From the IMG/VR virus record IMGVR_UViG_3300025101_000130, positions 1 through 28,368 of that record: 28,368 bases of DNA; one strand, 5' to 3'. Each line of letters begins with the position of its first letter. Positions within the stretch are counted from its first letter, which is position 1. The notes beneath the pieces are model-generated. The model made no database searches and had not been told where the DNA came from. It worked only from the letters and a program-made list of their open reading frames with translations. This document shows positions 3,912-28,368 of the stretch, piece by piece. Source of the DNA: a virus. The position numbers and the translations under genes were made by a program.

Positions 3912-3917
3912 TTATTG

Positions 3918-3943
3918 TTTGTTAATAATATTTAATATATTTG
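3918..3943 (+). promoter_or_regulatory. Bacteroidota-type promoter upstream of the head genes
   Basis: TATATTTG at 3936-3943 matches the -7 element TAnnTTTG used by the primary sigma factor of Bacteroidota. A TTG lies at 3915-3917, leaving 18 bases between the boxes, within the usual range for the -33 element; a TTTG at 3918-3921 is a closer alternative. The site lies in the 64-base gap between portal and scaffold-like gene, about 32 bases before the start codon at 3976, so the transcript would have a short A/T-rich leader. The motif is seen; its activity is inferred. Confidence 0.55.
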
Positions 3944-3975
3944 CAAAAAGTAATAACAATTTAATTTAATATAAA

Positions 3976-5166
3976 ATGAGTGAAGAAAAACTAGATGTTG
4001 CCAGTGAATTTGCAAATTTAACTGGTACAGAAATAGAGGTTTCTCATGAGTCTACTCCAAATGCTAATAGTGAAGACTCTCAGTTAGAAAGTAATATAAT
4101 TGATTTAACTGAAAATAAAGAAGAAACCCAAGAACAAGAAACTCCTGTAGAAATGACTCAAGATGAGGAAAGTCCACAGGAGATTATAGAAAGCTCTTTG
4201 AAATCAGATTCTCGTAAAGAAGAAAACGAGCAAGAAACTGAAGAACAATCTTCAGAAGCCCAAGATTCTTCTAATGATTCATACGACAAAACTCTATCTA
4301 TGCTAAACGAAACGTATGGTACAGAGTATGAGGATTTAAATGAATTGTTAGATGATTTGGAAGGTAAAAGTGATGGTCAAAACTTTGCTAGCGAACAGAT
4401 GGCAGAGTTGAATAGATTTGTTTCTGAAACAGGTAGGAGTCCACAAGACTACTTTAAAACACAAACACAGAATTATGACGAAATGTCTGAGTCTGATGTA
4501 ATAAAAGAATACCTATCTCTGGAAAACCCAGAACTTAGTCAGAAAGAAATAGACCTATTTTTTGATAGCACGTATAAACTTAACGAGGATAAATACAGTC
4601 CTGAAGAAACTGAATTGGGTAAAATCCATCTTAAGAGAGATGTTTCTAAAGCTAGAGGCGAGTTAAAAGAACTTCAAGAAGAGTATTGGTCACCAGAACA
4701 ATCTGGAGACACTTATTCTGATGAAGAACTTCAAAACATGGAAGCTGAAGTTGATAAAGCTAGAGAAACATTTTATAATGATATGGATGAAGAATTAGAT
4801 AGTATTGAGTCTTTAACTTTTAAAATAAATGATAATGAAAGTTTTGACTATAAACTAACTGATGAAGACAAGCAGGTTGTGGGAGAAGCGTTATCTAATT
4901 TAGATGACTTCTTTGAACCATATATGGACGAGCAAGGTAATTTAGATAAGGAAAGTTTAGCTTTAGATATGATGGCTATGAAGTTGCAAGACAAAATAGT
5001 TAGAAGTGTTGCTAGTCAATACAGGTCTAAAGGTTCTGAACAAGTTCTTCAGGATATTAAAAATCCATCTTTTGAGCCTGCTAAAGTAACTGATACTAAA
5101 GGAGGTGGCAACATAGATAAACAAATAAGTGACCAAATTTTTGGTGACTCAACTCTATGGGGCTAA
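3976..5166 (+). CDS. Acidic scaffold-like head assembly protein
   Basis: Probable scaffolding protein, judged mainly by position between portal and major capsid gene and by composition. Residues 1-105 are low-complexity and very rich in Glu, Gln, Ser and Asp. Residues 105-340 are acidic and helical-looking, with long Glu/Lys-rich stretches (for example KARGELKELQEEYWSPEQ). The C-terminal 25 residues (GGGNIDKQISDQIFGDSTLWG) are glycine-rich then amphipathic, which could be the capsid-binding end. Scaffolds typically are acidic and helical, with a small C-terminal capsid-binding motif. No protease motif is seen either here or nearby, so I cannot say whether it is cleaved or released. There is no Shine-Dalgarno; the start follows an A/T leader downstream of the promoter at 3936. 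A minor capsid or portal-binding role remains possible. Confidence 0.6.
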   Translation: MSEEKLDVASEFANLTGTEIEVSHESTPNANSEDSQLESNIIDLTENKEETQEQETPVEMTQDEESPQEIIESSLKSDSRKEENEQETEEQSSEAQDSSNDSYDKTLSMLNETYGTEYEDLNELLDDLEGKSDGQNFASEQMAELNRFVSETGRSPQDYFKTQTQNYDEMSESDVIKEYLSLENPELSQKEIDLFFDSTYKLNEDKYSPEETELGKIHLKRDVSKARGELKELQEEYWSPEQSGDTYSDEELQNMEAEVDKARETFYNDMDEELDSIESLTFKINDNESFDYKLTDEDKQVVGEALSNLDDFFEPYMDEQGNLDKESLALDMMAMKLQDKIVRSVASQYRSKGSEQVLQDIKNPSFEPAKVTDTKGGGNIDKQISDQIFGDSTLWG

Positions 5167-5207
5167 AATGTATTAAAATAAATTATTAAAAAATAAAATT
5201 ATAAATT

Positions 5208-6623
5208 ATGGCAAGTGTAAGTTTAGGTACTGGGATGGTTCTTAACCCAACAAGTGTTGCGTTAGCTACCCAGGACAATTATGTAAGTGCTCTAACTACT
5301 GCTGCTTTAGCTATGCATAAGCGAGACGTAGATGAGAATTTTGTCAAGAGATATGGTAATCAAGGTATTACTGGTCTACTTGAATTGGTGGGGGCCAAAA
5401 AAGAAACAACCCAAACAACCTTTTCACATTATGAAGAGGCATTTATTCACAATTCTGTGTTATTAACTAGTGCTGATGGTTCATATGGAACTGGTGCAGA
5501 GGTATTTACCTATGCAGCAGAAGACAATACTGATGCTGTTGGTGATGACACAACTATTGATACTAACGTAGATTCACCAGTAAGAGTAGGTGATATACTA
5601 ATGGCACCTAATGGTGAGTTAGGATATGTATCTAATGTTGCTGCTACTACTAGTAATGTTACCATGCTTTGTTTAAGTGGTACGTTTACATTCAGTGCTA
5701 CTGCTCAATTAAGATTCGCTATTGTTGGTAATGCTCACGCAGAAGGAAGTGGACAGCCAGGCTCTTTATTACCTAGAGTTCATACTTATGAAAACAATGT
5801 GATGATTATAAAAGAATCATTTGAGGTATCAGGTACTGAGGCTACTAACGTAGTTTACTTTAAGGTAGACAACGAAAAAATGGGCTCTGGTTACCTATGG
5901 TACTTAAAAGGTGAGGCTGATACTTATAAGCGATTCTTAGATTATTGTGAATTACAATTAATTATAGGTCAACAAAATGCTAACGTAACTGCTGGCTTTA
6001 CTGGAACTGATATTAGAGGTACTGAAGGTTTACTTTCTTTTATAGAAAATAGAGGTCAGTCAATGGACTTAGGAGCTTCTTCAATTACTATGGCAGATTT
6101 TGATGCTATGGTTAAGTCTTTAGATAAATATCGAGGTGCTAAAGAGATGGCTCTTTACGCTGGTATTGATTTATCTTTAGATATTGATGACTTATTAGCT
6201 GCTCAAGGAGCTTTTGCTTCAGGTGGTGCTAATTATGGTACGTTCCAAAATAAGAAAGATATGGCTCTTAACTTAGGGTTTAACTCTTTCACTAGAGGTG
6301 GATATACATTCCATAAGAAAACTTATGATGTGTTTAATCATCCTAAATTATTAGGAACTGCTGGTTCAAACTTCTCAGGATATGGTATGTGTATTCCTAT
6401 GGATACTCAGCGTGATGCTAAGAGTGGTTCAAAGATACCATCACTTAGAATCAGATATAAGGCTGCAAATGGTTATTCAAGAGAAATGGAACACTGGTTA
6501 ACAGGTTCTGCTGTTCTTAAGAATAAAACTAATGATAGTGACCACTTGAAGTCTCACTATAGAACTGAGAGAGGTTTTGAAGGTTTTGCACCTAATAGAT
6601 TCATGTTGATTAAGAAATCGTAA
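5208..6623 (+). CDS. Major capsid protein (HK97-fold expected, with insertion domain)
   Basis: Likely the major head subunit: it is 471 residues long, directly follows the scaffold-like gene and is followed by decoration-like genes. The N-terminal 60 residues are helical (YVSALTTAALAMHKRD, then a region ending FVKRYGNQGITGLLELVG). Residues 70-85 (TQTTFSHYEEAFIHNSV) resemble the strand that leads into the E-loop. Residues 123-182 look like an inserted small beta domain: VRVGDILMAPNGELGYVSNV, strands, then FAIVGNAHAEG. The rest has the long central helix (residues around 225-255) and a Gly/Ala-rich P-domain/A-domain pattern, finishing with a conserved basic C terminus. The preceding 41-base gap is almost entirely A/T and has no Shine-Dalgarno. 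I infer the HK97 fold from context; no fold-specific motif proves it. The inserted beta domain resembles two repeats at the end of the 2031-aa tail protein. Confidence 0.8.
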   Translation: MASVSLGTGMVLNPTSVALATQDNYVSALTTAALAMHKRDVDENFVKRYGNQGITGLLELVGAKKETTQTTFSHYEEAFIHNSVLLTSADGSYGTGAEVFTYAAEDNTDAVGDDTTIDTNVDSPVRVGDILMAPNGELGYVSNVAATTSNVTMLCLSGTFTFSATAQLRFAIVGNAHAEGSGQPGSLLPRVHTYENNVMIIKESFEVSGTEATNVVYFKVDNEKMGSGYLWYLKGEADTYKRFLDYCELQLIIGQQNANVTAGFTGTDIRGTEGLLSFIENRGQSMDLGASSITMADFDAMVKSLDKYRGAKEMALYAGIDLSLDIDDLLAAQGAFASGGANYGTFQNKKDMALNLGFNSFTRGGYTFHKKTYDVFNHPKLLGTAGSNFSGYGMCIPMDTQRDAKSGSKIPSLRIRYKAANGYSREMEHWLTGSAVLKNKTNDSDHLKSHYRTERGFEGFAPNRFMLIKKS

Positions 6624-9306: not shown

Positions 9307-10035
9307 ATGACAATAGATGAAGTATACAGATTTGTAAAAACAATGGCTAATAAAGAAAACAGAGGGTGGATAAAACCTTCTGAATTTAATTTATTGGCTG
9401 AGAGAGCACAGCTAGACCTTATAAAGGACAGGGTTGGAACAGTTTCTCCTGATGGAGTTGTTAATGGATACAAAACAAATGCACAGTTTTGGGATGAGTT
9501 GAGACCTGTTATAGCTTATAATATTGCATTAGCAAATGATGGAGATGGAGACTTTAACACAAATCAGAATGATACAGAGGCAACAGGTGATGATGTAGAT
9601 GTTTTTGGAGCAACTGGAGATTATCTGTATTTTTTAAGTGCTAGATATAATGGCAAACCTGTTGATATGGTTGATGTGAATGAAATATGGAGAAGAAGAG
9701 AGAGTTATTTAAATCCACCATCAGAAGATTTTCCAGTTGGAATTGTAACACCTCAAGGTATTAGGGTTTTTATAACTACTGCAGATTTAGGTGGTAGTGA
9801 GGATATTGGTACAGTTAGGTTAACTTATATTAAAAAACCACCTACACCAAATTGGGCTTATAACACAGTCAATAATGTGGAGATTTATAATAGCACAAAC
9901 TCAACTCAACTGACATTACCTGAAACTACACACAAAGAAATTGCTCACAGAATATTAGCTTATATTGGAGTAACATTAAGAGAGCAAACAATAGTTGAAT
10001 ATGGTACAGTAACAGTGGCAGAACAAAATAAATAA
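9307..10035 (+). CDS. Neck/ring (head-to-tail adaptor) candidate, 242 aa
   Basis: First gene of the neck/tail block. Its N terminus (MTIDEVYRFVKTMANKENRGWIKPSEFNLLAERAQLDLI, read in segments) is an all-helical pattern common at the start of structural proteins in crAss-like and related podoviruses: a helix, a 'GWIKPSEFN' turn and an Ala/Gln helix. Residues 80-110 contain an Asp/Gly-rich loop (GDGDFNTNQNDTEATGDDVD). Residues 120-210 look beta-rich (ITTADLGGSEDIGTVRLTYIKKP). The C terminus is helical (THKEIAHRILAYIGVTLREQ). Such proteins often form a ring between portal and tail. I infer this from N-terminal resemblance, size and position. The stop codon overlaps the next start by one base (TAATG), indicating translational coupling. 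Confidence 0.5.
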   Translation: MTIDEVYRFVKTMANKENRGWIKPSEFNLLAERAQLDLIKDRVGTVSPDGVVNGYKTNAQFWDELRPVIAYNIALANDGDGDFNTNQNDTEATGDDVDVFGATGDYLYFLSARYNGKPVDMVDVNEIWRRRESYLNPPSEDFPVGIVTPQGIRVFITTADLGGSEDIGTVRLTYIKKPPTPNWAYNTVNNVEIYNSTNSTQLTLPETTHKEIAHRILAYIGVTLREQTIVEYGTVTVAEQNK

Positions 10036-12485: not shown

Positions 12486-15400
12486 ATGCAAGATAAGAGG
12501 AATTTTCAAGGGGGTCTTAATAGGGATGACGATTCCAGGGTTTTACCTAATGGAGACTATTTCTATGCAAAAAATGTAAGAATAGTATCTTCTGAAGATA
12601 GAAGTTCTCAGTTGTTAGAAAATCTAAAAGGGATGGAAAAAGAAAAAACTCCAACTCTAACATTACCATCTTTTGGTTCTAACAAATTAGACTATAGGGT
12701 TATTGGCTCTTATGAGGATAAACCTAAAAACTGCATATATTACTTCTTATATAATAAACAGTTTTTTCACACAATATTAGAATACAATGTCAACACAGAT
12801 ACAGTTTCTACTGTTTTTAGAGACAATGGAGAAAAGGGCAATGATGTTCTTAGGTTTGATAAAAACACATTAATAACTGGTATAAATAAGATAGGAGATT
12901 TATTATACTGGACTAGTGACAATACCTATCAACACTTGTTAGAAACAAGAAACAATGAGCCTAAGTATATAAATGTAGAGATGGCTAAGGCTGGCTGGGC
13001 TGTTTATTATGATGGTGGAGCTTTTACAATTAACCCTACAACTGCATTTGATTTAGAAACAATGTATCCATTTGAATTTTACACAAGTTCACAAGATGGA
13101 AATGAGTCAGTTAATTTTGAGAAAAAACTTAAATATATAGATGTTTGTAAAACAAGACCTGCAGCTCCTATATACTTTCATCAAACCCCTATAAAAAATG
13201 TATCATCTACTGATGCAGACTTAAGCACACTTACTGATGGGGATGGAGAAGCTTTATCCTCTGGAACAGTTAAGCCAGGAGAAGTTGTATATGCAGACGC
13301 ATCAATAACCTCTGTTGAGGGTAGTTCACTTTTTGATTATGCATATAATAAAAATAATTTATATGGTTTTATGTGGCAGTTTGCATATAGATATATATAC
13401 AAAAACAATGAAGTTAGTGCTTACTCAGAGTGGAGCTTTGTACTTCCAGCTCCTCAATACTACGCAAACAAGGTTGATGAGAAGTTTCAAAACCCATACA
13501 ATCAAATCAGGGTCTGGTATCATAATGGACCTTCTGATGTTGATAAAATAGAGATAGTCGCTAGAAAATGTTCTTATATAGAAACATCTCCACATGAAGG
13601 TAATAAAGGTGAATACTATCTTATAGCCACTATTGAGAACAAATACTATGACAGTTCTTACTCTCCTTCTAACAACGTCTCAATAACAGGTGAGTCTGGC
13701 TTCCCACAATATGATTATACAAGTGTAACCACACAGAATGTTCCATATTTAACAAGTATGGAAACCAATGGTTCTGAGATAAAATATTCTAAAGAACCCT
13801 ATGGGTTTATTAACTTTAGAAATGATGGTGTATATTCTCAGGTTGACCCTGTAGCTTTTGATAAACTCTATGATATGGTTCCCAAAAGAGCTAAGGCACA
13901 AGAGTTGGTTAATGAAAACAGAATTATATATGGTAACTATGTAGATGGATTTGACCAGTGCAATCCACACTATCACTTATCTCCAATATACAATGACAAG
14001 GATGCACCATATGGAGAAGAAAATTTTAACCCATATTCATTCACTCAATTAGAAAATGGTTCTTGGGAGGGTTTCTTTACAGAGGATGGAGTGACTTCTG
14101 GAGATGGACATAAGCTAGCTAGTGGTTTTAACGACCCTAACATGAACTGGTTAAGGGGGACAAATGGAGACACAAACAATGGTTTATATGGAACTGTTGG
14201 TGAGGATGCTATGCATGTTTCTGACACAACTCCCTACAAACATAGAGCAGGGGGAGGAAACGCTTATGCAGTAAACACTGTTGATGGAGAAGGCATGTTA
14301 TCTGCCCAAGGTTTGGGTATAGGTGATGGTGATAGAAAGCACATAATGAAACAAGCTGCTTGGGACGTTAATCCACTTATAAGTAGGGTTAAGATAGTAT
14401 TCCCAACAAGTGGGACTTCAGGAGACTTATTTAGAATAAGAGTTAAACACAGGGAAAGATATAGAACACTATTTGGGTCCAGCACTGCTGGTTTTGGAAA
14501 ACAATCATTTTACCCATTTGACTGGGAAGACAATGGAAGCAATCAAGATGATGCTACAAAAGGCTTTAAATGGTTTGGGTATCAAATAGATTTATCAAGA
14601 GCTCTTGGTGGTGGAGGCATGAATGAGCTTATTACGTTTTTTATAAATGATATAAAAGCTATGGCTAACTTTGACCAAGTTCCTACTGGAGGGGGCTTAG
14701 ATGATAATAGGGGGACTGACTTTAGTATAGACCCACAAACAGGTTCAGCTAACACTTTCTATAATCCAAACCATAAAGATGGAGATAACCCAGGAAAAAT
14801 ATACACAACTTGGATGAAGAATGGTGGTTCTGAAACAGATTCCTCTGGTGCTGCTCCTGGTGCCCATACTTATGGGTGGGATGGAACCCAGAGACAGGGA
14901 GCTGCATTAATGAGATTGGTTAGAATAAGGCAAGAAGATACTGACTTTGGAACTGGTAATGCTATATATATGGAGTTTGCTCCTTATGGCCAAACTATTG
15001 CTAGTGATGGTGATGGTGACAATGCCCCATTTCCTGATGATGGTTGCTCTACAAAAAGACATCTTTTTGAGTTTGGAAACGCAAACGCTGATGGAACTGG
15101 TTATTACTACCCATTTGGTAGCTTTACTCCTCCATATCATTCTCATTCTGGTGGTTCAACAACAAATCTACATTGTTGGATTCGTGGTTCATCATCTGGC
15201 TGGTTTGGAGAAACCCCTGATGACGAGGTAAATTCATATTATGATTCAACAGAGTGTGAAGGTGTTTTAGGCTCTATAGGTTGTGGTAATTTTTGGGCAG
15301 TTGATTCTTCTAATTTACTGGGAACAAGGTCTGGTTGTCAAACAGATGGAGATAGGTATAATGCAAAATATTTAGAAGTTGAATACGATAGTGAGAACAG

Positions 15401-18400
15401 TTCTTTTGATGGAGCTAAAGGACAATGGAGTCCAGGTGGTGTTTGGGAAATAATAAGCACTGTAAATGGAGGGTTTGGAAACATGATACACTCAGCTAAT
15501 GGTGCTCAATCATTTAAGTCTGGAGCTTTCCATAGATTTGGATTAGTATATTATGATTATAAAGGTAGAAGCTCTACAGTTATGTTAAATACAGAGGATG
15601 TTAGCGAAACCTTTGAAAGAGACTCGTCCTGCTATGTTCAGTTCCCACCTGAGAAAAATTTAGCCCAATATCCACCAACATCATTTAATGCTAACAACCC
15701 TAGTGGTATTGTAAGTTCTGAGCTAGGTGATGGTGATAAAGCTACCCCAGCAGATGTTTATTGGAAAATATTTCATAAACCACCAATATGGGCAAGATAC
15801 TATCACTGGGTTTATGCTAGGAACACATCTGTTGCTCAGTTCCTTCAGTTTTCTGTAGATAATGCATATGTTAATAAAGGAGCAAAAGCTGGAGTTGGTG
15901 AAGGTGAAGCAGAAAACGATACCAAAATATATATATCTCTAAACACAATGGATGGTAGAGATTGGAGTTATAGCGAAAAAAACAGAGCCTTAATTGGTGA
16001 CTGGAGTTTCGCAGAGGGAGATAGAATAAGGTTAATAAGTAAAGGAGACTTAGATGCTGATGGTACTGACGATGGTGTTTTTGATGAGTATTATGATTTT
16101 AAAATTAGTGACATAGGTCATTTCCCAGGAAGATTCGAACTTGGTGATGATGAAGATGGAATCATGAAAGAAACACACGTGGTTTCTAACTCTCCTGTTG
16201 GTGGGGCTTTTAATGAACCACAATCTGGTGTTCAGGGTAAATTTATTATTTTAGATGACCCAAAAATACCTAACTATGGTATAGCTGGTGCTGAGGGTCA
16301 ACCAAATGGTAGAATACCAAACTGGCATAAAGTTGTGGTTGAGATATACAGACCTAGTAAAAACGAAAAAGAAGAAGAAACATTGTATTATGAGTTTGCT
16401 GAGAGAATGAATATTGGTGACCCTGGAACTAACGAAAGATTTCATCAAGGACCTTTAAGTAATCAAGATGGTTCTGTTTACGATTCTAATGACAAAACAT
16501 TGTTAGCACCTGCACAGGGAATATTTAAAAGGGGTGATATATGGTGGAAGCCAAGAGAGATTCAAGCTGTATTAGAAGATGGTACTGCACTTGACATGAG
16601 GGCTATATATGTAGAGAGTTATTTTTTAAATGACTTTATGCAAACTAACCACAACAACATAGGAAGGCCTAATGTTTTTTCAACATTTGCTAAGGAACAA
16701 AGGAGAGAGGCAACATTAACTTATTCTGATGTTTTCCAACCTGATACTCAATATAATGGCTTACACTCATTTAACTTTAGTCAAAGACCATATATGGACT
16801 ATGACTTATCTTTGGGTTCAATACAGAAGCTTGTTTCTAGAGATACTAATCTTGTTATGTTACAAGAAAACAAACTATCAACTATACTAGTAAACAAATC
16901 TATAATAACATCACCTTCAGGAGATGAGGGTATATCTCTATCTAATAATGTTCTTCCTGAGACTGCATCTCCAGTTGCTGGAGAATATGGTGTTTCTAAG
17001 AATCCAGAATCTGTAGCTGTGGAGGCTTCATCAATATATTTTGCAGACATAAAGAGAGGAGCTATCCTAAGGTTAGGGGGGAATGGAATTACAGTTATCT
17101 CTGATTATAAAATGACAGATTATTTTAGAGATAAGATGGACCAATACCAACAAATATTAGAATCAGAATATGAAGAAAAACTAGGTGGTGGTTTATTTAT
17201 AATTGGTGGGTTTGACAGAAGACATAAGGAATACGTAATTAGTTTTCCACCAACATATAAAACAACTAAGTCTACATCTGACAAACCTAAGAAAGCTTTC
17301 TTTAATACAAATTCACAAGTTTTCCAAAGTGAGACCACAACATTTAACACTTTAAAAACAAGTGACAAAATTAAAACAAGTTTTTTAGATAAAGATTTAC
17401 CTCAAAAATATGAGATAAATGGTAGAGAGCTTGATATAGACCCTGAAACTATAGCTTTCCATGAGCCCTCAAACAGGTGGAGTTCTTTTTATACTTATTA
17501 CCCAGAATATTATGGAGCATTAAACAGAACATTTATAAGTTTTAAAGATGGGCATTTATATAAACATGATATGGACTCAAACTGGCATAATCAATTTTAT
17601 GAGTATCCATTTGCTGAAGAGTCAGAAATATCTTTCCCATTCAATGCTGATGTATCAACTGTAAAAACTTTTAACTCCATATCTCTTGAAGGACCCTCTA
17701 AATATTCAGTAATCCCAATACTAACAGTTGCGTCTTCATCAGGTCCAGCCACAATAACAGCAACAACAGGTAGTGCAAACCTAGAAGGCTCTAATGTAAA
17801 TCTAACATCCTCTTCAGCAGACATTAAAGTTGGTGATGAAGTTTTTTACAATGACAATGGAACATTTAGAACACTGGGGGTTATAACTGCCTTAACTGAT
17901 TCAGATACTATTGTTACAAGTGTTGATGAAGTTAATGCTTTTATAACAGCTAGCACCACATCGTCAGGTGACGCACTAGAAGGTGTGTTTATTGTCTCTG
18001 CTGAAAAAAGTGCTTACAACACAAAATTAGAAACAAATATGAATAGCACTGAATTGGTTCATAGACTTTCTTATAATAACTCTGCTACCACATATTCAGG
18101 TTCTTGGGTAGATAGGGAAGATGTTCTTAGCACTCATATATCTAATGGCACAACTAACACTTCTGGTGGAGAATACTTTGGTATAGGTCATGTTTCTTCA
18201 GACAATGGTAATGAAGAGATTTTTGGAAGCACCACATGGGCTGCTCTTGTTGGTGGATTGGTTCAAGGAACAACAACTAACACAACCTTTACATCTGCAG
18301 GAATAAACATAGGGGATTCAATTTATTATGATAATAATGGAACTGAAACACTAATTGGGGTGATAGATACTATTAATGAAGATAGAATGATTACATTAGC

Positions 18401-18581
18401 GTCTAATGCTACAACTTCTTTAGCAAATACTTTTATGTTTGTAAAGAAAAATTCTACCATTGAAGGAGATAGATTAAAGGGAAATTATATGGATGCAACC
18501 CTAACAAAAAGGTCAAAAGATAAGATTCATTTATTTGCAGCAAATGCAAATGTAATTAACAGTGAACTTAGCAATAAATAA
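12486..18581 (+). CDS. Giant tail stabilisation / 'muzzle'-like protein (2031 aa)
   Basis: Probable main component of the short tail. The N terminus (RNFQGGLNRDDDSRVLPNGDY, then FYAKNVRIVSS) has the 'GG..D...R.LPN..Y..A.NVR' pattern shared by P22 gp10-like tail stabilisation proteins and crAss-like counterparts. The body is rich in Gly, Asp, Asn, Ser, Tyr and Trp with repeated short beta strands, as in beta-propeller or beta-sandwich tail proteins. Residues 500-960 are especially Gly/Asp-rich. A regular stretch (residues 1420-1700) includes TYSDVFQPDTQYNGLHSFNFS, IQKLVSRDTNLVMLQENKLS and GGLFIIGGFDRRHKEYVISF, again typical of gp10-like families. Residues 1779-1845 and 1938-2004 are two copies of a small beta domain (VGDEVFYNDNGT..., IGDSIYYDNNGT...). 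At 6.1 kb it dominates the block. Its position after ring-sized proteins agrees with a crAss-like muzzle. Fibre binding is possible. Confidence 0.68.
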   Translation: MQDKRNFQGGLNRDDDSRVLPNGDYFYAKNVRIVSSEDRSSQLLENLKGMEKEKTPTLTLPSFGSNKLDYRVIGSYEDKPKNCIYYFLYNKQFFHTILEYNVNTDTVSTVFRDNGEKGNDVLRFDKNTLITGINKIGDLLYWTSDNTYQHLLETRNNEPKYINVEMAKAGWAVYYDGGAFTINPTTAFDLETMYPFEFYTSSQDGNESVNFEKKLKYIDVCKTRPAAPIYFHQTPIKNVSSTDADLSTLTDGDGEALSSGTVKPGEVVYADASITSVEGSSLFDYAYNKNNLYGFMWQFAYRYIYKNNEVSAYSEWSFVLPAPQYYANKVDEKFQNPYNQIRVWYHNGPSDVDKIEIVARKCSYIETSPHEGNKGEYYLIATIENKYYDSSYSPSNNVSITGESGFPQYDYTSVTTQNVPYLTSMETNGSEIKYSKEPYGFINFRNDGVYSQVDPVAFDKLYDMVPKRAKAQELVNENRIIYGNYVDGFDQCNPHYHLSPIYNDKDAPYGEENFNPYSFTQLENGSWEGFFTEDGVTSGDGHKLASGFNDPNMNWLRGTNGDTNNGLYGTVGEDAMHVSDTTPYKHRAGGGNAYAVNTVDGEGMLSAQGLGIGDGDRKHIMKQAAWDVNPLISRVKIVFPTSGTSGDLFRIRVKHRERYRTLFGSSTAGFGKQSFYPFDWEDNGSNQDDATKGFKWFGYQIDLSRALGGGGMNELITFFINDIKAMANFDQVPTGGGLDDNRGTDFSIDPQTGSANTFYNPNHKDGDNPGKIYTTWMKNGGSETDSSGAAPGAHTYGWDGTQRQGAALMRLVRIRQEDTDFGTGNAIYMEFAPYGQTIASDGDGDNAPFPDDGCSTKRHLFEFGNANADGTGYYYPFGSFTPPYHSHSGGSTTNLHCWIRGSSSGWFGETPDDEVNSYYDSTECEGVLGSIGCGNFWAVDSSNLLGTRSGCQTDGDRYNAKYLEVEYDSENSSFDGAKGQWSPGGVWEIISTVNGGFGNMIHSANGAQSFKSGAFHRFGLVYYDYKGRSSTVMLNTEDVSETFERDSSCYVQFPPEKNLAQYPPTSFNANNPSGIVSSELGDGDKATPADVYWKIFHKPPIWARYYHWVYARNTSVAQFLQFSVDNAYVNKGAKAGVGEGEAENDTKIYISLNTMDGRDWSYSEKNRALIGDWSFAEGDRIRLISKGDLDADGTDDGVFDEYYDFKISDIGHFPGRFELGDDEDGIMKETHVVSNSPVGGAFNEPQSGVQGKFIILDDPKIPNYGIAGAEGQPNGRIPNWHKVVVEIYRPSKNEKEEETLYYEFAERMNIGDPGTNERFHQGPLSNQDGSVYDSNDKTLLAPAQGIFKRGDIWWKPREIQAVLEDGTALDMRAIYVESYFLNDFMQTNHNNIGRPNVFSTFAKEQRREATLTYSDVFQPDTQYNGLHSFNFSQRPYMDYDLSLGSIQKLVSRDTNLVMLQENKLSTILVNKSIITSPSGDEGISLSNNVLPETASPVAGEYGVSKNPESVAVEASSIYFADIKRGAILRLGGNGITVISDYKMTDYFRDKMDQYQQILESEYEEKLGGGLFIIGGFDRRHKEYVISFPPTYKTTKSTSDKPKKAFFNTNSQVFQSETTTFNTLKTSDKIKTSFLDKDLPQKYEINGRELDIDPETIAFHEPSNRWSSFYTYYPEYYGALNRTFISFKDGHLYKHDMDSNWHNQFYEYPFAEESEISFPFNADVSTVKTFNSISLEGPSKYSVIPILTVASSSGPATITATTGSANLEGSNVNLTSSSADIKVGDEVFYNDNGTFRTLGVITALTDSDTIVTSVDEVNAFITASTTSSGDALEGVFIVSAEKSAYNTKLETNMNSTELVHRLSYNNSATTYSGSWVDREDVLSTHISNGTTNTSGGEYFGIGHVSSDNGNEEIFGSTTWAALVGGLVQGTTTNTTFTSAGINIGDSIYYDNNGTETLIGVIDTINEDRMITLASNATTSLANTFMFVKKNSTIEGDRLKGNYMDATLTKRSKDKIHLFAANANVINSELSNK
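17820..18500 (+). repeat. Two diverged copies of a beta domain at the end of the tail protein
   Basis: Protein-level repeat. Copy A (about 17820-18010) reads IKVGDEVFYNDNGTFRTLG then VITALTDSDTIVTS and ends FIVSAEKSAYN. Copy B (about 18300-18500) reads INIGDSIYYDNNGTETLIG then VIDTINEDRMITLASN and ends FMFVKKNSTIEGD. The order of conserved positions is the same: V/I-G-D, aromatic pair, N-G-T, L-G-V-I, T, F-x-x-x. The copies have diverged, and the 290 bases between them (18010-18300) encode other beta-rich sequence. Confidence 0.6.
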
Positions 18582-19881: not shown

Positions 19882-21762
19882 ATGCCAATAGCTAATGTAT
19901 CAGACATAGTAGGTAGAAGAGACCTTGTAGCAGAAGCTCAAGGTTGGAGTGACCAAATGATTAAGTGGAAGAAGCTTAAGATGATGCAGGAAGAGCATAA
20001 AGAGAAAACTAAACCCAAACCTTATAAATTTGATTTAGCTGAATTTGGAACTGACAACGAGGCTATGCTTGGTTTACAGGAAGACTTAAATAACCAGGCT
20101 TATCAGTTTGCTATGGCCAACGCTGACGTTTTGAGAATAGACCCATACTCTGAAGATTGTGGACCAAATTGTAAAAGAGCACATAATGCTTTAAACAACA
20201 TGAAAGGTGCAGCAAAAATATTCAACACATATGGTAATGATTTAAAAGATAGGTATGATTATTTATCTAGATTATACCACGAACAAGGAGATTTGTATGG
20301 CAACTCTGAAAATGCCCAAAAGCTAGTAGACATGCCAGGACTTTGGAAACAAGGTATGGCTGGTGAAACTTATAATTTTACTTTTGGTCCTGATGGAAGG
20401 TTGATGGTTGATGTAAAGAAAAGAAAACAAACTCAAAAAATTCAAACTGACCCTGATGGAAATCCTGTTTTAAAAGATGGACAACCAGTAAAGATGTATA
20501 TTGCTAAAGATGGTAACACAGAAGGAACTGAAGACCCCTCTAGAGCTGAGAAGGGTAAAGATGGTAATCCTTTACCTTTTATGGTAGATATGGATACAGG
20601 TCAAGATACTGACTTTGAGGTAACTCAAAAGAGTTTTGGAAACTTTTTAACTGACTTAGGATTTAATGATGTTATTAAAAACACTGGAGCTGAAAATTTT
20701 GACAAAACTGTGTTTTCTTATTCTAAGATGGTAGATTTTGGAACAAATGAAACAACTGGAGCTAAAAACTACGAAGACCATGAAAGAACGTCTAAACAAA
20801 AAATGGAAGCATTTATTTTTGGTGGCTCAGGTTCTTGGAATAATACAACTGGAACTGGTGATTTAGCTAGTCATTCCAGATATTTAGAAAAATTAGTACA
20901 ACAAGACAAAGAGGAGGCTGATGATGCGACTCCAATAACAAAACAAGACCTTATTGATAAAGCTTATGAGTTAGGGAAAAGTTCATTAACTGGAAAGGAC
21001 ACTAAAAAAACAACTCAAGCTCAAACAGTGGAGCTTTATAATTTAGATATTCCTGGTGTAAACTATAAGACTACTGTTGATTACGATAATAATGGAAGTG
21101 TTATTCAGTCTGCAAAAATTGAGGATGGAGAATCAGTATCTTACCCTTTTCAGGGAAAAAGTTTCGCTACTGGTAGTTCTACTCAAAATTATATATCATT
21201 AAGTCATACAGTTAATCCTAACACCACAACCCTTACTACTGGTGATAACAATTTTCAAACAGTTAATAGCAACACTGCTCTTGATTCTTTTGAGAAACCA
21301 AGAGATTTTCGTACTGGAACGATTGGTATTGCCCCATTTTATGTTGACCCAACAACTGGAAAGGGTAGGGCTTTATCTCAACAGGATTTAAAAAAATTAC
21401 AGGAAGAGTCTCCAGAGTTAGCAAAAAACATACAGTTTAAAGTTGCTCTTTATGGAAATATTGTTTTTAGTGGAACATCTGAGAAAAAGAAATTAGGGAA
21501 TCTTGGAATACAATATACTGAAACTCAAGACAGTAAGGGTCTTTTGGTTCCAGCCATAGTAGAAGCTGGATTTTATGAAGAAAGAATTAAAGATATTAGA
21601 AGTTCAACTGACCCAAGTAAAACATCTAGAAATATAGAAACTTATGACAATTTAACAATACAGGCAACAAATCAAACTAAAGCTTTTTTAGATGGCTTAA
21701 CAGGTGATGTTCAGAATCAGAATCAACAAAATAATAATCCAGACCCATTAGGTATATTATAA
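19882..21762 (+). CDS. Hypothetical virion/cargo-like protein (626 aa)
   Basis: I do not recognise the family. Residues 1-130 are helical and basic then mixed (SDQMIKWKKLKMMQEEHKEK; LGLQEDLNNQAYQFAMAN), with a Cys pair in SEDCGPNCKRA (C93, C97). Residues 165-230 have a Gly/Asp-rich run with the repeated pattern DGNPVLKDGQPV and GKDGNPLPF. Residues 240-390 are mixed helical (FGNFLTDLGFNDVIKNT; YLEKLVQQDKEEADDATPI). Residues 390-590 look beta-rich (YNLDIPGVNYKTTVDYDNNGS). The tail is Asn/Gln-rich, ending DPLGIL. There is no signal peptide or membrane segment. It sits between the S74-like gene and the giant protein and overlaps the latter by one base (TAATG), so the two are probably made and packaged together, perhaps as internal or ejection proteins. 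This role is inferred only from location. Confidence 0.45.
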   Translation: MPIANVSDIVGRRDLVAEAQGWSDQMIKWKKLKMMQEEHKEKTKPKPYKFDLAEFGTDNEAMLGLQEDLNNQAYQFAMANADVLRIDPYSEDCGPNCKRAHNALNNMKGAAKIFNTYGNDLKDRYDYLSRLYHEQGDLYGNSENAQKLVDMPGLWKQGMAGETYNFTFGPDGRLMVDVKKRKQTQKIQTDPDGNPVLKDGQPVKMYIAKDGNTEGTEDPSRAEKGKDGNPLPFMVDMDTGQDTDFEVTQKSFGNFLTDLGFNDVIKNTGAENFDKTVFSYSKMVDFGTNETTGAKNYEDHERTSKQKMEAFIFGGSGSWNNTTGTGDLASHSRYLEKLVQQDKEEADDATPITKQDLIDKAYELGKSSLTGKDTKKTTQAQTVELYNLDIPGVNYKTTVDYDNNGSVIQSAKIEDGESVSYPFQGKSFATGSSTQNYISLSHTVNPNTTTLTTGDNNFQTVNSNTALDSFEKPRDFRTGTIGIAPFYVDPTTGKGRALSQQDLKKLQEESPELAKNIQFKVALYGNIVFSGTSEKKKLGNLGIQYTETQDSKGLLVPAIVEAGFYEERIKDIRSSTDPSKTSRNIETYDNLTIQATNQTKAFLDGLTGDVQNQNQQNNNPDPLGIL

Positions 21763-24700
21763 TGACTCAAGACGATAAAATAACAATAGAAGAATTAGCC
21801 CAAAGGTTAAAGGAAAAATATCCACAGTATCAATCGATGGATAACCAAGAATTGGTTGATAAGGTTCTTTCCAAATATCCTGAGTATCAGAATGTCTTAA
21901 AAAAAAAAGACCAAAGCGAAGAAGACTTATTGGATGTGGAAGATGGTACATCAGAGTTGGAAAATATTGGTTTGGACTCTTTACAAGCTGAAGAAAACAC
22001 TCCAGTATACACAATAAATGGCGAAAACACTTCTAAAGAATCTGTACTAGAATCTATAAATAATGATGAATTTATAGAGGGAGTTGTTAATGGAGACAAT
22101 AATATAGATATTCAAAATGACGAAAGCACTTCTGAAATTCTTGTTAATAAAGTAAATGATTTTAATAATAAACAAGAAGAAAATAACAACACGCCTAATA
22201 TAACCATAAATGAAGAAGCTGATGAAGAGCTTATAAAAACAGACCCAACTAAGGCTGTATCTAGAGAAAGCTTAGTCCCTATCCTTACCCAAGAAGATAA
22301 AATATCCCTAACAGGGGGGTTAACTAACAATGCAGTAAACCCTGTTGTAAACCAGGCTTTAGCTGAAGTAAGAGATGTGTGGCCAGAGCAACCACTACTT
22401 AATATTGAGAGTGCTTATAGAGATGAAGAGCTAAATAAAAGCGTTGGGGGACATGACCACTCTTACCATTTACATGGAATGGCTATAGACCTTACAGGCG
22501 ATTCAGCAAAGGTGTTTTTAAATTGGGTTAACACAACTGAGGAAGGTAAAGCTTGGGCTGAAAAATGGACAGAAGGAGCTGATGGGGGTACTGGAATTAT
22601 TTTAGAGTCAGAGGGAACTAGAAAAGAGCATGTTCATATACAGTTTAAAAAAGGACTTGGAAATCCTTTAACCAACTCTGAACCCTCAGCACTTCCTGAG
22701 GGAAATATGGAAACTATAGATAGAGTTTCTCAAACAAACCAGTCTGATGTTTCTGATGATGGATGGGTTTCAGGAGACACTCCAATGTTAAATCTTTCAG
22801 GAGTATCAAAAGAAGAAAAAAATAAGATACTATCTGAAATAGATGATACATACTCTAATTTTAATATAGAAGATGTATCTTCATTATATACTGAAAAAGA
22901 GTTAAAACACTTAAGAGACAAGCTAGAGTCTGAGGAGCTTATGGTCACTGGAGGTCGTACTCCAGGAGCAGTTAAAGAAAAGGGATTTGGCATAACAGAC
23001 CCTTGGTGGAAATCTGACGAATACTTTAATGAATTAGTAAATAGACCAAGAAAAGTTATACAACAATATTTAAACAGTGGATGGGAGCATGTAGGAAATA
23101 GAAGCTACAAACATACTGAAACAGGAATTGTTATATCACCTGAAGACTCAGAGGGTAGAAACCCACTTATAGCAAATAGTTCTGCAATACCTGAGATGAT
23201 AAAGTTATCTCAAGAAAATCCTGAATACTTGAGAGATTTGAATTATGTAAAAATAAAAGAACTATATGACAAGTTTAATCCAATTTTATCAAACTATTAT
23301 CAACAAGAAATAGAGAAAAGTAGTGGAGATAAAAAAGAGCTTTTAGAGCAAGAGTTTAAAATTAATATGGGAGAGTTTGTTTTAGGTAAGACAAACAGTA
23401 TGTTAAAGGGCTTGGAAAATAGCATTCCAGAGAGTGTTAATGAACAAACAATAGAGGTTGGTAAAAAACTTTCTTTGATGGAGGACTGGTTAGTAAAACA
23501 ACAAAAACTAATTAACTCATATCCTAAAACTGCATATGGATTTGTTGATACTAGATATATGTCTGAGCAAGATATAGATAGTTATAATAGTTTAGTTAAA
23601 GACTATAACGAAAAGTATAATGGAATATATAAAAATCTATTAGGAGAACAAAATAAAATAATTGAAGACAACCCCAATTTAGGTGTTATAAACAATCTTT
23701 CAAGTGGATACAATGAGTCTGTTAAATATATCAATGCAGCTAGAGAAAATGAAATATGGAAATCCCATTATGATAAAATAATAAAGAGACAACAGGAGAT
23801 AGATAAAGAGTGGAAGAACACACCTTGGACAGCAGTTCCAGCTTTTGCTCTAGCTCAAATTGCTTCAGACTTAACTGGAACAATGCTAAAAGGTATTGCT
23901 AGTGTTCCTGAGCAAATAAAAAGTATATTCTCTTATGAAAATGAATATGACTTTACAGATAAAATATCAAGAGAGGTTGCTAAGGCTTGGGAAACATCTC
24001 CATTTAATATACCAAAACCAACTGCACTTAATAATGCTGAAGCTTTAGGTAAAGTTTATTCTTCAAATGTAGATGGAAACAGCATTTACTTTGACGATAA
24101 AGGAAGAATAAAGCACATCCTAAATAAAGATGGATTAAAAGTTGAAGGTGGAACAGATGAATATAATAAAGTAGTAAAAGAATATAATGAAAATAAAGAA
24201 ACATACCCTATAGAGGAAAGTTATCAATGGGGAAATACTCTTTATAATGTTTTACATGCAGGTGGTGGTTTTGCTGTAGACATGGGACTTGCATGGTTAA
24301 CTAGAGGTAGAGCAAAAAGTTTAGGTGCTGGTCTAAAAGCACAAAGATATGCTTTTGCAGGTGGATTAACTGGAGCAACAAACTTAAGAATGTATCATGG
24401 ATTTAGAGAAGAGGCTATTAAACAGGGTTTATTACCTGGAGATGCTTCTAGGTTTGGTAATGAAGCTAGTGCTATAGTTAGTGCAATAGAATTATTAACA
24501 CCTGATTTTGGTATGCTTAATGCATCAACTAAAAAGCTAGCAGCAAATGAAGTTTTTGATGCACTTTCTAGAACAACAAAGCAAGATGCAGTAGATAAAA
24601 TAATTAGAAGAAACACTATAAATAATACGCTTTTTTATGGAACCATGGAAGGTTCTGAAGAGGTTTTTCAAAGTTTAGGTGTTGATGCACTTAAAGACAA

Positions 24701-27700
24701 TTATTATCGTGAATATAACTTTGAAACAGAGGGTTTAAGTAGAAGGTCTGCAGAAGAGTTTTTAATTGGTGCTTTACTTGGGGGTGGTACAACTCTTGTA
24801 TCTAATGTAAACACAAGTAGAGATTATATAGTAGATGACTTATATAAAGATGCTCTTTTAACTTCCTACAACAACTATAAGTCTAAGGGTGGAAAGTCAG
24901 ATATTTTTTCATACATAGACAACATGGTTGGTAAAAACATTGACCCTAAAACCAAGTTTACTCAAACTGACGCTAAAAAAATGAAAGACAAGTTAACTAA
25001 CCTTTTTGGAGAGTTAGATAATTTAGTTGGAGAAAATAAACTTTATGACAATGACCTATCTAAAAGAGAGCTTTTAAACTTAGTGGAAGGCAAGAAAGTT
25101 GCTGAAGCACTTCAAGGTTCTCTAGACCCTGTTCAAGCTGAGTTAATGAAAAATAGAATAAAAGATTACGATAGTTCTATAAACAAAATACTCAAGGGGA
25201 ATGACCCAATAAAGGTTATGAGTGACCTTGCTATTAAAAATGACAATGCAGTAAATAACTATGTCAAAGGTTTTATGAAAAACACTGACATACCAGATGG
25301 GGCTAAAGCACTTATAAGACAGTTGTCATCTAATTCAATTACTACAGAGAGTCAGAAAAGGTTATATTTAGCTGCTTTATCAGAGGATATAAAGAGGTTG
25401 GACAATATGGACTCAGATAAGATGACAGATGTAGATAAAAAGAAACTAACTCTATATAAGAGAATAGAAAAAGATATTAACAATCTAAAAGTAAAAAAAG
25501 ATGAAACAACAACTACCACTGCAACTGGAACAGAGGCTGGAAGAACTGCCAGAGGAACTGAAACTGAAGGTGTTGGAAAAGATACTGAACAGGCTGCAAC
25601 AGAATCAGAAAAAACAACCCTCAATCAAAACATAGGTAAAAGGGTTTCTTACAAAGGTAAAAAAGGAATACTTGCAAAAGACAAAAATGGTAATTTCATA
25701 CTTAAACCTATAGGTAGGGGTAGGGGTGTGAAAATCAAAGGTGTTAAGAGGGGGAATATGAGAATGGGGACTGTTGGCCTTCAATATGAGGGGGCAAATA
25801 TATCTGTTGATAATAATAATAATCTTACTATAGATGGACAAAATTCTGGAGAAATAGTTGGATTATATAAAGATGATTCAGGTGCTTTGGGTGGAGTGAT
25901 TACTATTGACGATAAAGTTGGAGATTTAATTGTTAATAAAGATAAAACTAAATCTAAGATTAGGAGACTTCAAAAAAGAAGAAACAATGGAGACATTTCT
26001 CAAAGAGAGTTTCTAAATAAAGTTAGAGAAATAGATGGTGTAAACATCTTAACAGATAGTGATGTTAAGTTTGATGCTGCTTCTAATAAAGTTACAAACG
26101 ATATTCTTAACGCTGGTGGTGTTGAGGTTATAACAATGGAGGATGTAGAACAAATGATAGATGAGGCTATAAATGAGCTTGGTCAAGAATATCAGACAAA
26201 ATCACAGAAAGCTAAACAAGAAAAATCTAATCAATCTAAAAGAAATAAAAAAGAAAATATAAAGCAAGAGAAGAGGTCTACTGAGCCCTTATTTGACTCA
26301 AGGTCTGGAACTGATATAGACTCCTTAATAGAAGAGTACGACAAGTTTGAGGGTGCAGAATACAGGGCAAAAGTTAGAATATTAAAACAAGCTAAGAACC
26401 TTTTTCAAACACAAGGACAAAGTGTTGTTATACATGATAATACTGAATCAGAAGTTGAATACTTTATAAACCAAGGATTTAACCCTGTCGAGGCAGTTAA
26501 ATTAGCTGTAGGAGGTAATGGTTTTAATTTAGAGAGTGGTTTAGGTAATGAAGCAGTAATGCATATTAATTTTGAGCTAGCTAATGACAATACACTATTC
26601 CATGAGGCAGCTCATCCATTTGTAACATCTATATTTGAATATGCTAAACAGGGAAATAAAAATGCTAAGCAATTAGTTGAGAGCATAGAAAAAACATTAC
26701 CAAAGGAATATTTAGACTTTGGATATAATCCAAAATCAGGATATGCAAAAGACAAAAGTGGAAAAACACCATTGGATAAAAATGGCAATGTAGATAGAAA
26801 AAGGGTTACTAATAAATATGATTCAAATGGTCCACTTGCTGAAGCACTAGCTGAGTTTTTAGCAGATGCTGGTCTTAAAAAGTTTGATGATAATCAAAGC
26901 ACTTTAAACAAAGCTATTAGTTACGCTAAATCAACTATAAGTTCAATACTTGGAATAGAAACTGATAATCCTGTAAACATAAGTCTAGAAGAGTTAAGTA
27001 ACTTAACCAATATAGATGACGTTGCACAAATATTCAAAGAGTCTACATCAAGAGGGATGACAGTTAACGAGAAGGCCAGAGGTCAAGTTAAGCCAACAAT
27101 TAAAAGACAAGTTGACAATTCTATCCCAGGTGAAGTTATTGCAGAAAATGTAACCATGACCAGCATAGACAGTGATGTTGGTCAAGATGTCTCACCCACT
27201 AATGTTGATAATGTAGAGAGGACATTTGAAGAGGGAGATGTTATAAGAGCAGATAGAGGTGATTATGAGGGGCAAACATTTACAGTTATAGCAGCAGATA
27301 GAGCTTTAACAGGTAATGTTAAGTCGCCAACAGGGGTGGAAATGGAGTTTAAAGGTGGAATGTATTTTCCATACGCTTTTAAAGGTTATGCTTGGGCTGT
27401 GCATGGTCCTGCAATTGGAACAAGACTTATTAACTCTGCTAAAGCAACAGATGGCAGGGTTGCAGTAATGATTACAGGAGACAGAGGTATAGAGGGAAGT
27501 TTATTAATGTCTGAGTATATAATAAAAGAGTTCCAAAATGCTATAGATAATAAAACAGCTAGTAAAAAAGATGTTCTAGAATTTATAAATGGGAAATTAA
27601 ATAATAGGGCTATAAGAGAAGCTATAGACAAAAAAAAATTACTAGGCAATAGAAAAGGCATAAAAGATTTAGGTGAGATTATGCCTATATTTGAGCAACT

Positions 27701-28368
27701 AAGTTTTGCTGCAAGAAAATCATTTATTGAAAAAATTGTTGAATCCAAAGACAGTACAATGAATAAATTTGGACTACCTGGTTCAGATGCAATTTTAGAT
27801 TGGGTAAATGACCCAGACTTAAAAAATATTAGGAACTCAAGTGTAGTTTCTATGGTTCAAATTGATGTAAACGACCCTAATGTAATTGTTGATACACAAT
27901 CATCTGATTATGATGGGCCAATTCATGAGTCTTACAGGTATCTCATTAAAGGGAGTCCAATAACTGTTCTTAACAAGTCTATTCCTATTGAGGACCTAGT
28001 AGAATCTTATAGGGGTGAGAAATACTTGGAAAAAGGAAAGTTTTCCACAAGTAGAGCAGGATATGCAGTAGCTCAGTCAATGCCAGAAGTTAAGTTTCAA
28101 ACATATGGAGACAATGGGTTTTCAGCATTAGATTCTGCTTTAGAATTTACAGACATAAACAGTGGTACACCAAAACAGTGGATAAAAGAAATAAAAAGAG
28201 TTGGAGATAGAAACACTCTTAATGAACTAAAGTTTGTGGGAATGAGAGATTTCTTAAAGTCTGTTGAAAGGTCTTACGCTGATGGACTTATACCAAAAGC
28301 TGCTATTCAAGATTATATATCTATGAATAATACCTCTATAGATATAGAAGAAAATACTATGAGAATTA
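21762..28368 (+). CDS. Giant multi-domain virion protein with M15 peptidase and HExxH domains (3' end cut)
   Basis: The frame runs from the TAATG overlap at 21762 to the window edge without a stop: at least 2202 codons. Residues 7-43 hold two 'KYPxY' helical repeats. Residues about 180-295 form an M15 (D-Ala-D-Ala carboxypeptidase/endolysin-type) site: SAYRDEELNKSVGG, then SYHLHGMAIDL with H236 and D243, and KEHVHIQF with E289 and H292; spacing and order match the zinc ligands and catalytic Glu of the family. Residues 470-680 are helical and charged. Residues around 687-705, 834-846 and 998-1014 are hydrophobic and Gly/Ala-rich, possible membrane-entering segments. A Thr/Glu-rich linker (1245-1287) precedes an SH3-like segment (GKRVSYKGKKGIL). 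Further on, FHEAAHPF (1614-1618) is an HExxH motif, with E1694 or E1698 as candidate third ligand. A second SH3-like segment starts near 1823. It likely enters the cell with DNA and opens peptidoglycan; the HExxH role is unknown. Confidence 0.7.
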   Translation, partial: MTQDDKITIEELAQRLKEKYPQYQSMDNQELVDKVLSKYPEYQNVLKKKDQSEEDLLDVEDGTSELENIGLDSLQAEENTPVYTINGENTSKESVLESINNDEFIEGVVNGDNNIDIQNDESTSEILVNKVNDFNNKQEENNNTPNITINEEADEELIKTDPTKAVSRESLVPILTQEDKISLTGGLTNNAVNPVVNQALAEVRDVWPEQPLLNIESAYRDEELNKSVGGHDHSYHLHGMAIDLTGDSAKVFLNWVNTTEEGKAWAEKWTEGADGGTGIILESEGTRKEHVHIQFKKGLGNPLTNSEPSALPEGNMETIDRVSQTNQSDVSDDGWVSGDTPMLNLSGVSKEEKNKILSEIDDTYSNFNIEDVSSLYTEKELKHLRDKLESEELMVTGGRTPGAVKEKGFGITDPWWKSDEYFNELVNRPRKVIQQYLNSGWEHVGNRSYKHTETGIVISPEDSEGRNPLIANSSAIPEMIKLSQENPEYLRDLNYVKIKELYDKFNPILSNYYQQEIEKSSGDKKELLEQEFKINMGEFVLGKTNSMLKGLENSIPESVNEQTIEVGKKLSLMEDWLVKQQKLINSYPKTAYGFVDTRYMSEQDIDSYNSLVKDYNEKYNGIYKNLLGEQNKIIEDNPNLGVINNLSSGYNESVKYINAARENEIWKSHYDKIIKRQQEIDKEWKNTPWTAVPAFALAQIASDLTGTMLKGIASVPEQIKSIFSYENEYDFTDKISREVAKAWETSPFNIPKPTALNNAEALGKVYSSNVDGNSIYFDDKGRIKHILNKDGLKVEGGTDEYNKVVKEYNENKETYPIEESYQWGNTLYNVLHAGGGFAVDMGLAWLTRGRAKSLGAGLKAQRYAFAGGLTGATNLRMYHGFREEAIKQGLLPGDASRFGNEASAIVSAIELLTPDFGMLNASTKKLAANEVFDALSRTTKQDAVDKIIRRNTINNTLFYGTMEGSEEVFQSLGVDALKDNYYREYNFETEGLSRRSAEEFLIGALLGGGTTLVSNVNTSRDYIVDDLYKDALLTSYNNYKSKGGKSDIFSYIDNMVGKNIDPKTKFTQTDAKKMKDKLTNLFGELDNLVGENKLYDNDLSKRELLNLVEGKKVAEALQGSLDPVQAELMKNRIKDYDSSINKILKGNDPIKVMSDLAIKNDNAVNNYVKGFMKNTDIPDGAKALIRQLSSNSITTESQKRLYLAALSEDIKRLDNMDSDKMTDVDKKKLTLYKRIEKDINNLKVKKDETTTTTATGTEAGRTARGTETEGVGKDTEQAATESEKTTLNQNIGKRVSYKGKKGILAKDKNGNFILKPIGRGRGVKIKGVKRGNMRMGTVGLQYEGANISVDNNNNLTIDGQNSGEIVGLYKDDSGALGGVITIDDKVGDLIVNKDKTKSKIRRLQKRRNNGDISQREFLNKVREIDGVNILTDSDVKFDAASNKVTNDILNAGGVEVITMEDVEQMIDEAINELGQEYQTKSQKAKQEKSNQSKRNKKENIKQEKRSTEPLFDSRSGTDIDSLIEEYDKFEGAEYRAKVRILKQAKNLFQTQGQSVVIHDNTESEVEYFINQGFNPVEAVKLAVGGNGFNLESGLGNEAVMHINFELANDNTLFHEAAHPFVTSIFEYAKQGNKNAKQLVESIEKTLPKEYLDFGYNPKSGYAKDKSGKTPLDKNGNVDRKRVTNKYDSNGPLAEALAEFLADAGLKKFDDNQSTLNKAISYAKSTISSILGIETDNPVNISLEELSNLTNIDDVAQIFKESTSRGMTVNEKARGQVKPTIKRQVDNSIPGEVIAENVTMTSIDSDVGQDVSPTNVDNVERTFEEGDVIRADRGDYEGQTFTVIAADRALTGNVKSPTGVEMEFKGGMYFPYAFKGYAWAVHGPAIGTRLINSAKATDGRVAVMITGDRGIEGSLLMSEYIIKEFQNAIDNKTASKKDVLEFINGKLNNRAIREAIDKKKLLGNRKGIKDLGEIMPIFEQLSFAARKSFIEKIVESKDSTMNKFGLPGSDAILDWVNDPDLKNIRNSSVVSMVQIDVNDPNVIVDTQSSDYDGPIHESYRYLIKGSPITVLNKSIPIEDLVESYRGEKYLEKGKFSTSRAGYAVAQSMPEVKFQTYGDNGFSALDSALEFTDINSGTPKQWIKEIKRVGDRNTLNELKFVGMRDFLKSVERSYADGLIPKAAIQDYISMNNTSIDIEENTMRI
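22410..22643 (+). other. M15-type peptidoglycan peptidase active-site region
   Basis: This is the part of the giant protein encoding the conserved M15 motifs. The pattern S-x-H-x-x-G-x-A-x-D gives zinc ligands H236 (base 22467) and D243 (base 22488). E289 (base 22626) and H292 (base 22635) form the E-x-x-H pair that supplies the catalytic base and third ligand in this family. All four key residues are present, so an active enzyme is expected. Known relatives cleave peptide cross-links or stem peptides in cell walls. Confidence 0.75.
26580..26880 (+). other. HExxH zinc-peptidase-like region in the giant protein
   Basis: The segment encodes NDNTLFHEAAHPFVTSIFEYA with HEAAH at residues 1614-1618 (first His codon at 26601). 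About 76-80 residues later PLAEALAEFLADAGL supplies glutamates E1694 and E1698, suitable as a third zinc ligand in gluzincin-type enzymes. Upstream lies FINQGFNPVEAVKLAVGGNG, a segment often seen just before such motifs in large phage and mobile-element polyproteins. It could cut virion proteins during maturation or host proteins after entry. Confidence 0.55.

Follow-up and report, generated by a model that had tools for sequence, protein, structure and literature searches.

A cargo protein of the polyvalent type is the probable product of the last late gene of the virus studied here, taken to be a podovirus whose tail resembles that of crassviruses; a probability of about 0.7 is assigned to this model as a whole. 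The window, i.e., the whole stretch of 28368 nucleotides that was analyzed, corresponds to the complete virus record (G000). A first-pass annotation of the window had proposed a virion protein of the polyvalent type in which two zinc-peptidase sites belong to different families, and this proposal is supported by the homology of the protein to a phage protein annotated as identified by MS/MS, by the position of the gene and by the domains LPD23 and InPase found in its relatives. The reading as polyvalent virion protein is thereby well supported by homology. The protein is a variant of the already known polyvalent injected phage proteins, and among the records searched its fusion to an M15 peptidase is confined to this lineage. 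What happens in the first minutes of an infection is decided by injected phage proteins, a group that also supplies unknown enzymes, and the variable middle of the giant protein may hold uncharacterized tools for this first infection step.

The giant open reading frame starts with an ATG at position 21762 and runs on the plus strand without any stop codon through 28368, confirming the earlier claim of a frame of at least 2202 codons. In shuffled sequence of the same composition stop-free runs reach at most 137 codons. Because the virus record comprises no more than the window, the gene is cut off where the contig stops. The sequence past 28368, which the first-pass annotation had called for, is supplied by the relative L003, which shows 55 mismatches to the window across 12.7 kb (99.6% identical DNA) and in which the gene is complete, encoding a protein of 3389 aa with 1187 residues beyond the window's contig end. 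The version in L002 has 3373 aa with 78% amino acid identity, and L004 carries 2922 codons of the gene. Since the same open frame is present in L003, L002 and in part in L004, the giant gene is not split by a frameshift or stop, which had been named as a refuting observation. Compared to L002, dN/dS is 0.18 for the whole gene and 0.10-0.44 for its segments, indicating purifying selection in each; as amino acid changes are selected against in all segments, this is a single functional gene. That the long frame is an assembly artefact fusing separate genes, for which one could only point to the gene running off the window end, was rejected as having a negligible probability given the concordance of independent contigs and the low dN/dS in all segments. 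The features are compiled in Table 1.

Table 1. Features of the window, with residue numbers referring to the giant protein.
Feature	Position	Strand	Basis
Terminase large subunit, portal, next gene, major capsid protein	3..6623	+	PHROGs 6681, 6547, 13704; Pfam SU10_MCP
2031-aa gene, crassvirus muzzle (tail tip)	12486..18581	+	PF25731, E=1.5e-18
Giant ORF, residues 1-2202 of 3389 aa	21762..28368	+	Open frame; remainder from L003
M15 (D-Ala-D-Ala carboxypeptidase/endolysin-type) peptidase domain, residues ~180-300	22299..22661	+	Pfam PF08291, PHROG 894
M15 catalytic residues H236, D243, E289, H292	22467, 22488, 22626, 22635	+	
Gly/Ala-rich region, residues ~851-1060	24312..24941	+	Occupies the place of the relatives' Gly/Ala-rich or hydrophobic N-terminal region
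Zincin-like metallopeptidase module, residues ~1530-1730	26349..26951	+	Conserved motifs; L023 homology
HEAAH, residues 1614-1618	26601-26615	+	
EALAE, residues 1694-1698, with likely third zinc ligand	26841-26855	+	
Shared module, residues ~1830-2130, FKGGMYFPY...AWA motif	27249..28151	+	Common to other giant phage proteins
Beginning of another module, residues 2131 to ~2310, extending past the window	28152..28367	+	Fuller in L023, L040

Judged from its genes, the virus is a podovirus related to Cellulophaga and Flavobacterium phages (marine Flavobacteria). Its portal is 25-37% identical to those of Flavobacterium elemo phages, of Cellulophaga, Maribacter and Tenacibaculum phages and of ctfjg026. 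As indicated by the muzzle homolog, the phage has tail parts in common with crassviruses. For 10035-11765 a similarity to crAss ring protein 2 was seen that stays below the threshold (E=0.005), and the tail-fibre-like gene at 18609-19871, located between the muzzle gene and the gene preceding the giant gene, encodes a Peptidase_S74 (endosialidase chaperone) domain (E=3e-5). The giant gene is the final gene of the late operon, and giant last late genes were found in most of the portal relatives, i.e., in elemo (3694 aa), ctfjg026 (3859 aa), phi38:1 (1691 aa), phi18:3 (1935 aa) and Panino (1829 aa). An exception is Tenacibaculum phage Gundel, the giant gene of which lies upstream of the terminase (L013:9882-17330); its product contains an acetyltransferase-like stretch (sub-threshold Pfam matches). 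In public records the giant gene of Panino (L012:35426-40915) is named 'tRNA methyltransferase' and that of ctfjg026 (L008:642-12221) 'reticulocyte binding/rhoptry protein', both probably misannotations, as these are giant terminal late genes of the same type. The elemo protein (L009:52-11136) contains DUF3293 (E=1e-12), a recurrent module of giant proteins that is also found in 9 of the 13 scanned relatives.

Near the N-terminus, the profile matches identify a real M15 domain with all four catalytic residues present, for which enzyme activity is predicted. Pfam PF08291 (M15_3) matches the giant protein with E=1.3e-8 (35.4 bits, cut-off 23.2), and the match to the PHROG 894 endolysin spans residues 179-298 and includes H236, D243, E289 and H292, the residues that had been proposed earlier. 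The H, D, E and H of the SxHxxGxAxD and ExxH motifs are kept in L002 and L005, the segment has a dN/dS of 0.097 (versus L002), and a pattern of the type H..G.A.D...[DE]..H arose in only 4 of 5000 shuffles of the giant protein. The structural check suggested for this domain was answered in part: the sequence profile matches, whereas the AlphaFold model (pLDDT 35, alignment of 3 sequences) is too poor to show the fold. M15_3 is above cut-off also in L002, L003 and L005. Among the 20 records searched it lies within the giant frame in four, all from this lineage, and forms a separate ORF of ~150 aa in five other relatives; these counts derive from incomplete records and the fused form represents a single lineage.

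This distribution bears on the possibility that the M15 part is the phage's lysis endolysin, made within the giant chain and freed by cleavage, which would account for M15_3 being found in the lineage solely inside the giant frame while five relatives carry it as a separate ORF. This is considered quite improbable. The records are incomplete, and as no exact end overlap joining the contigs L005 and L004 was found, the absence of a second M15 in the lineage rests on such incomplete records. Moreover, another candidate wall gene, DUF5675, is located directly downstream in this lineage only, the sequence of the fused M15 bears no close resemblance to those of the separate M15 ORFs in the relatives, and the giant protein belongs to a virion family. 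A capture of the M15 domain from the phage's own lysis gene is not claimed either, as fused and separate sequences are not close. The DUF5675 gene (E=2e-27; L003:16283-16783) was detected downstream of the giant gene in no relative searched outside the lineage, including those with separate M15 (incomplete records), and it could be a replacement lysis gene.

The second putative peptidase site contains the HEAAH motif named in the first-pass annotation, at residues 1614-1618. Its H, E and H as well as E1694 and E1698 of the downstream EAxAE motif are invariant across nine aligned relatives. These relatives were in part found by a pattern ending with NTLFH, by which the first His is biased, while the Glu and the second His of HExxH and the EAxAE motif were absent from that pattern. 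As HEAAH and the downstream EAxAE are invariant in the nine relatives, a zincin-type site is likely. A chance HExxH was obtained in 66 of 5000 shuffles of the giant protein. The module has a dN/dS of 0.134 (versus L002), and by BLAST residues 1595-2114 are homologous to L023 (E=2.5e-43). The HEAAH region has no match to the Pfam model MPTase-PolyVal (PF18818), a model that represents just a fraction of the diversity known. In the AlphaFold prediction HEAAH and EALAEF are each placed on a helix, as far as the proposed structural check could be carried; pLDDT is low, the alignment shallow and the fold is not confirmed, with the models of residues 1530-2340 being too poor to serve as fold evidence. 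A fold search in the PDB yielded nothing at E<0.001, PDB sequence searches nothing usable, and a fold search in BFVD two unnamed viral proteins (E=2.9e-6 and 2.5e-4, TM ~0.2), which are uninformative on function. The HExxH is missing from relatives of ~1590-1990 aa, phi18:3 included, and for this reason the peptidase is regarded as an addition outside the basic function.

If active, the zincin-like peptidase would most likely have its own giant chain as substrate and release functional pieces from it, either inside the head or once the protein has entered; we give this about even odds. The main alternative, an injected effector peptidase acting on a host protein, is considered less likely. Such a role was deemed possible for domains of this kind, and the N4 virion RNA polymerase with its MPTase domain is packaged unprocessed (PMC5512222). 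However, a recognizable target or target-binding domain was not found, and for P1 DdrB, the example with processing, own-chain cleavage is the proposed role (PMC5512222). As processing precedes packaging for P1 DdrB and the N4 virion RNA polymerase is packaged unprocessed (PMC5512222), the timing of a processing event in the giant protein cannot be guessed from these examples.

Several further parts of the protein were assigned. The segments described earlier as Gly/Ala-rich and hydrophobic are indeed Gly/Ala-rich, but only mildly hydrophobic, with no 19-residue window above 1.2 on the Kyte-Doolittle scale, and no confirmation was obtained for the two SH3-like segments. Comparison of the Gly/Ala-rich region with the N-terminal region of the relatives by hhalign gave a probability of 5% and E=0.008, which is only suggestive of homology. 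C-terminal to the zincin-like module, a tile profile of residues ~1830-2130 matches L038, L039, L023 and L040 with E ~1e-39, and the same residues have a weak BLAST match to the elemo phage. The length of the middle region varies strongly among the giant proteins. The part past residue 1300, in which no function had been nameable at first, thus holds the zincin-like module, two shared modules and, beyond the contig, a conserved C-terminal core. No catalogued polyvalent domain (LPDs and others) was found in the window protein, NCBIfam gave no match, and a direct tblastn search with the window part of the protein had no match in the phage records.

Of greatest interest is the uncatalogued core at residues ~2500-3280 of the 3389-aa protein, shortly past the end of the window. 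Residues 2531-3281 are homologous to residues 1177-1810 of gp123 from Cellulophaga phage phi18:3 (E=5e-36), recorded as a structural protein and annotated as identified by MS/MS. The core profile also matches phi38:1 (E=5e-19) and all searched virus contigs in which the C-terminal part of such a gene is included, and it does not match elemo, ctfjg026, Panino and Gundel. In a scan of bacterial genomes the core was detected in several phyla, with assemblies of Zoogloea, Dechloromonas, Azoarcus, Pseudothauera, Myroides, Marinomonas, Ekhidna and others among them, presumably in prophages. The complete ones of these ORFs encode 2100-3500 aa; the core is situated close to their C-terminus and is in most cases preceded by a single HExxH. 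InPase, a named polyvalent-protein domain, is fused in frame with the core in the Marinomonas ORF and in one Zoogloea ORF, and LPD23 is above cut-off in the relative L023. A Pfam scan of 13 relatives returned no model for the core. LPD38 (PF18857) was tried as its identity and rejected, as there was no match in the lineage and a sub-threshold one only in Maribacter phage Panino. Tentatively, the core may be an uncatalogued packaging/ejection module by which one class of injected giant proteins is defined. This module would be common to Bacteroidota podoviruses and to giant ORFs in genomes of Pseudomonadota and further phyla, and would serve as a base for the exchange of wall-cutting and effector domains, M15 being the addition made in this lineage. 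The family combines a variable middle with a conserved core that is found in bacterial genomes as well as in cultured phages, namely phi18:3 and, at greater distance, phi38:1. This combination makes it practical to test packaging and ejection driven by the core and to read effector modules from the varying parts.

The giant protein resembles phi18:3 gp123 (Pachyviridae, PHROG 22602) in the homology of the core and as product of the last late gene; in contrast, gp123 has only 1935 aa and lacks M15, HExxH and the modules at 1830-2330. The features of phage-type polyvalent proteins (Iyer, Burroughs, Anand, de Souza and Aravind, 2017, PMC5512222) are found in the very large chain, the context of late genes with portal-terminase packaging, the combination of a zincin-type HExxH with a peptidoglycan peptidase, and the LPD23 and InPase domains of the relatives. 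Among polyvalent proteins zincin peptidases are known and DD-peptidases occur less often (PMC5512222). At least two domains of different activity are combined in one chain of 3389 aa (M15, HExxH module and shared modules), with both recognized activities being peptidases. Unlike these proteins, the window protein has no LPD or MPTase-PolyVal match and its core no Pfam match. Giant terminal proteins occupying the same gene position are encoded by Elemovirus (3694 aa) and ctfjg026 (3859 aa); the window protein has in common with them a similar size and HExxH sites and, for Elemovirus, short BLAST matches to the middle region, whereas the core profile fails on both and the M15 of ctfjg026 is a separate gene. 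The likeness to the crassvirus cargo proteins (phicrAss001 gp45-gp50), which are large, stored in head and tail and then ejected (PMC10172136), is by tail context only, i.e., by the muzzle homolog of this podovirus; unlike in crassviruses, no RNA polymerase module was seen in this phage.

On the basis of these published polyvalent and crassvirus cargo schemes (PMC5512222, PMC10172136), the giant protein is proposed to be stored in the virion and to leave it via the tail, with or ahead of the DNA; the wall would be cut by M15 and the chain by the zincin-like module. The core and the Gly/Ala-rich region, as the constant parts, would most likely serve encapsidation and passage via portal, tail and envelope, the M15 domain would most likely cleave the stem peptides of peptidoglycan during passage of the protein across the periplasm, and the modules at 1830-2330 may be exchangeable cargo acting in the host. 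Several observations weigh against this model: the MS/MS evidence concerns a homolog that shares the core only, the window protein matches neither a catalogued polyvalent domain nor MPTase-PolyVal, the AlphaFold models are poor, and HExxH is missing from the minimal relatives of ~1590 aa and from phi18:3.

Some of these observations would also fit a protein that serves only in ejection or as a channel, comparable in role to T7 gp16, with wall opening as the task of M15, a structural function for everything else and neither processing nor effector activity of the HEAAH module. The occurrence of the core in relatives of ~1590-1990 aa without HExxH suggests that the basic task is accomplished by the core on its own, and the window protein contains no catalogued effector domain. 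This is nevertheless judged to be rather unlikely, as HExxH and EAxAE are invariant in nine relatives and under purifying selection, effector-type domains (LPD23, InPase) are present in the same chain of relatives, and the middle region is strongly variable in length. The polyvalent-type cargo protein is the preferred reading.

Two further observations were made in the relatives. The protein encoded by L023:974-12247 (3757 aa) contains two HExxH sites and LPD23, and it has a stretch which by eye resembles an ADP-ribosyltransferase fold (RSTGHFGTGFYF). In a close relative, a separate ORF at a contig end (L049:19426-19982; G003:40962-41279) matches MPTase-PolyVal with E=4e-27, and together with the preceding ORF it looks like an ArdC-type antirestriction protein.
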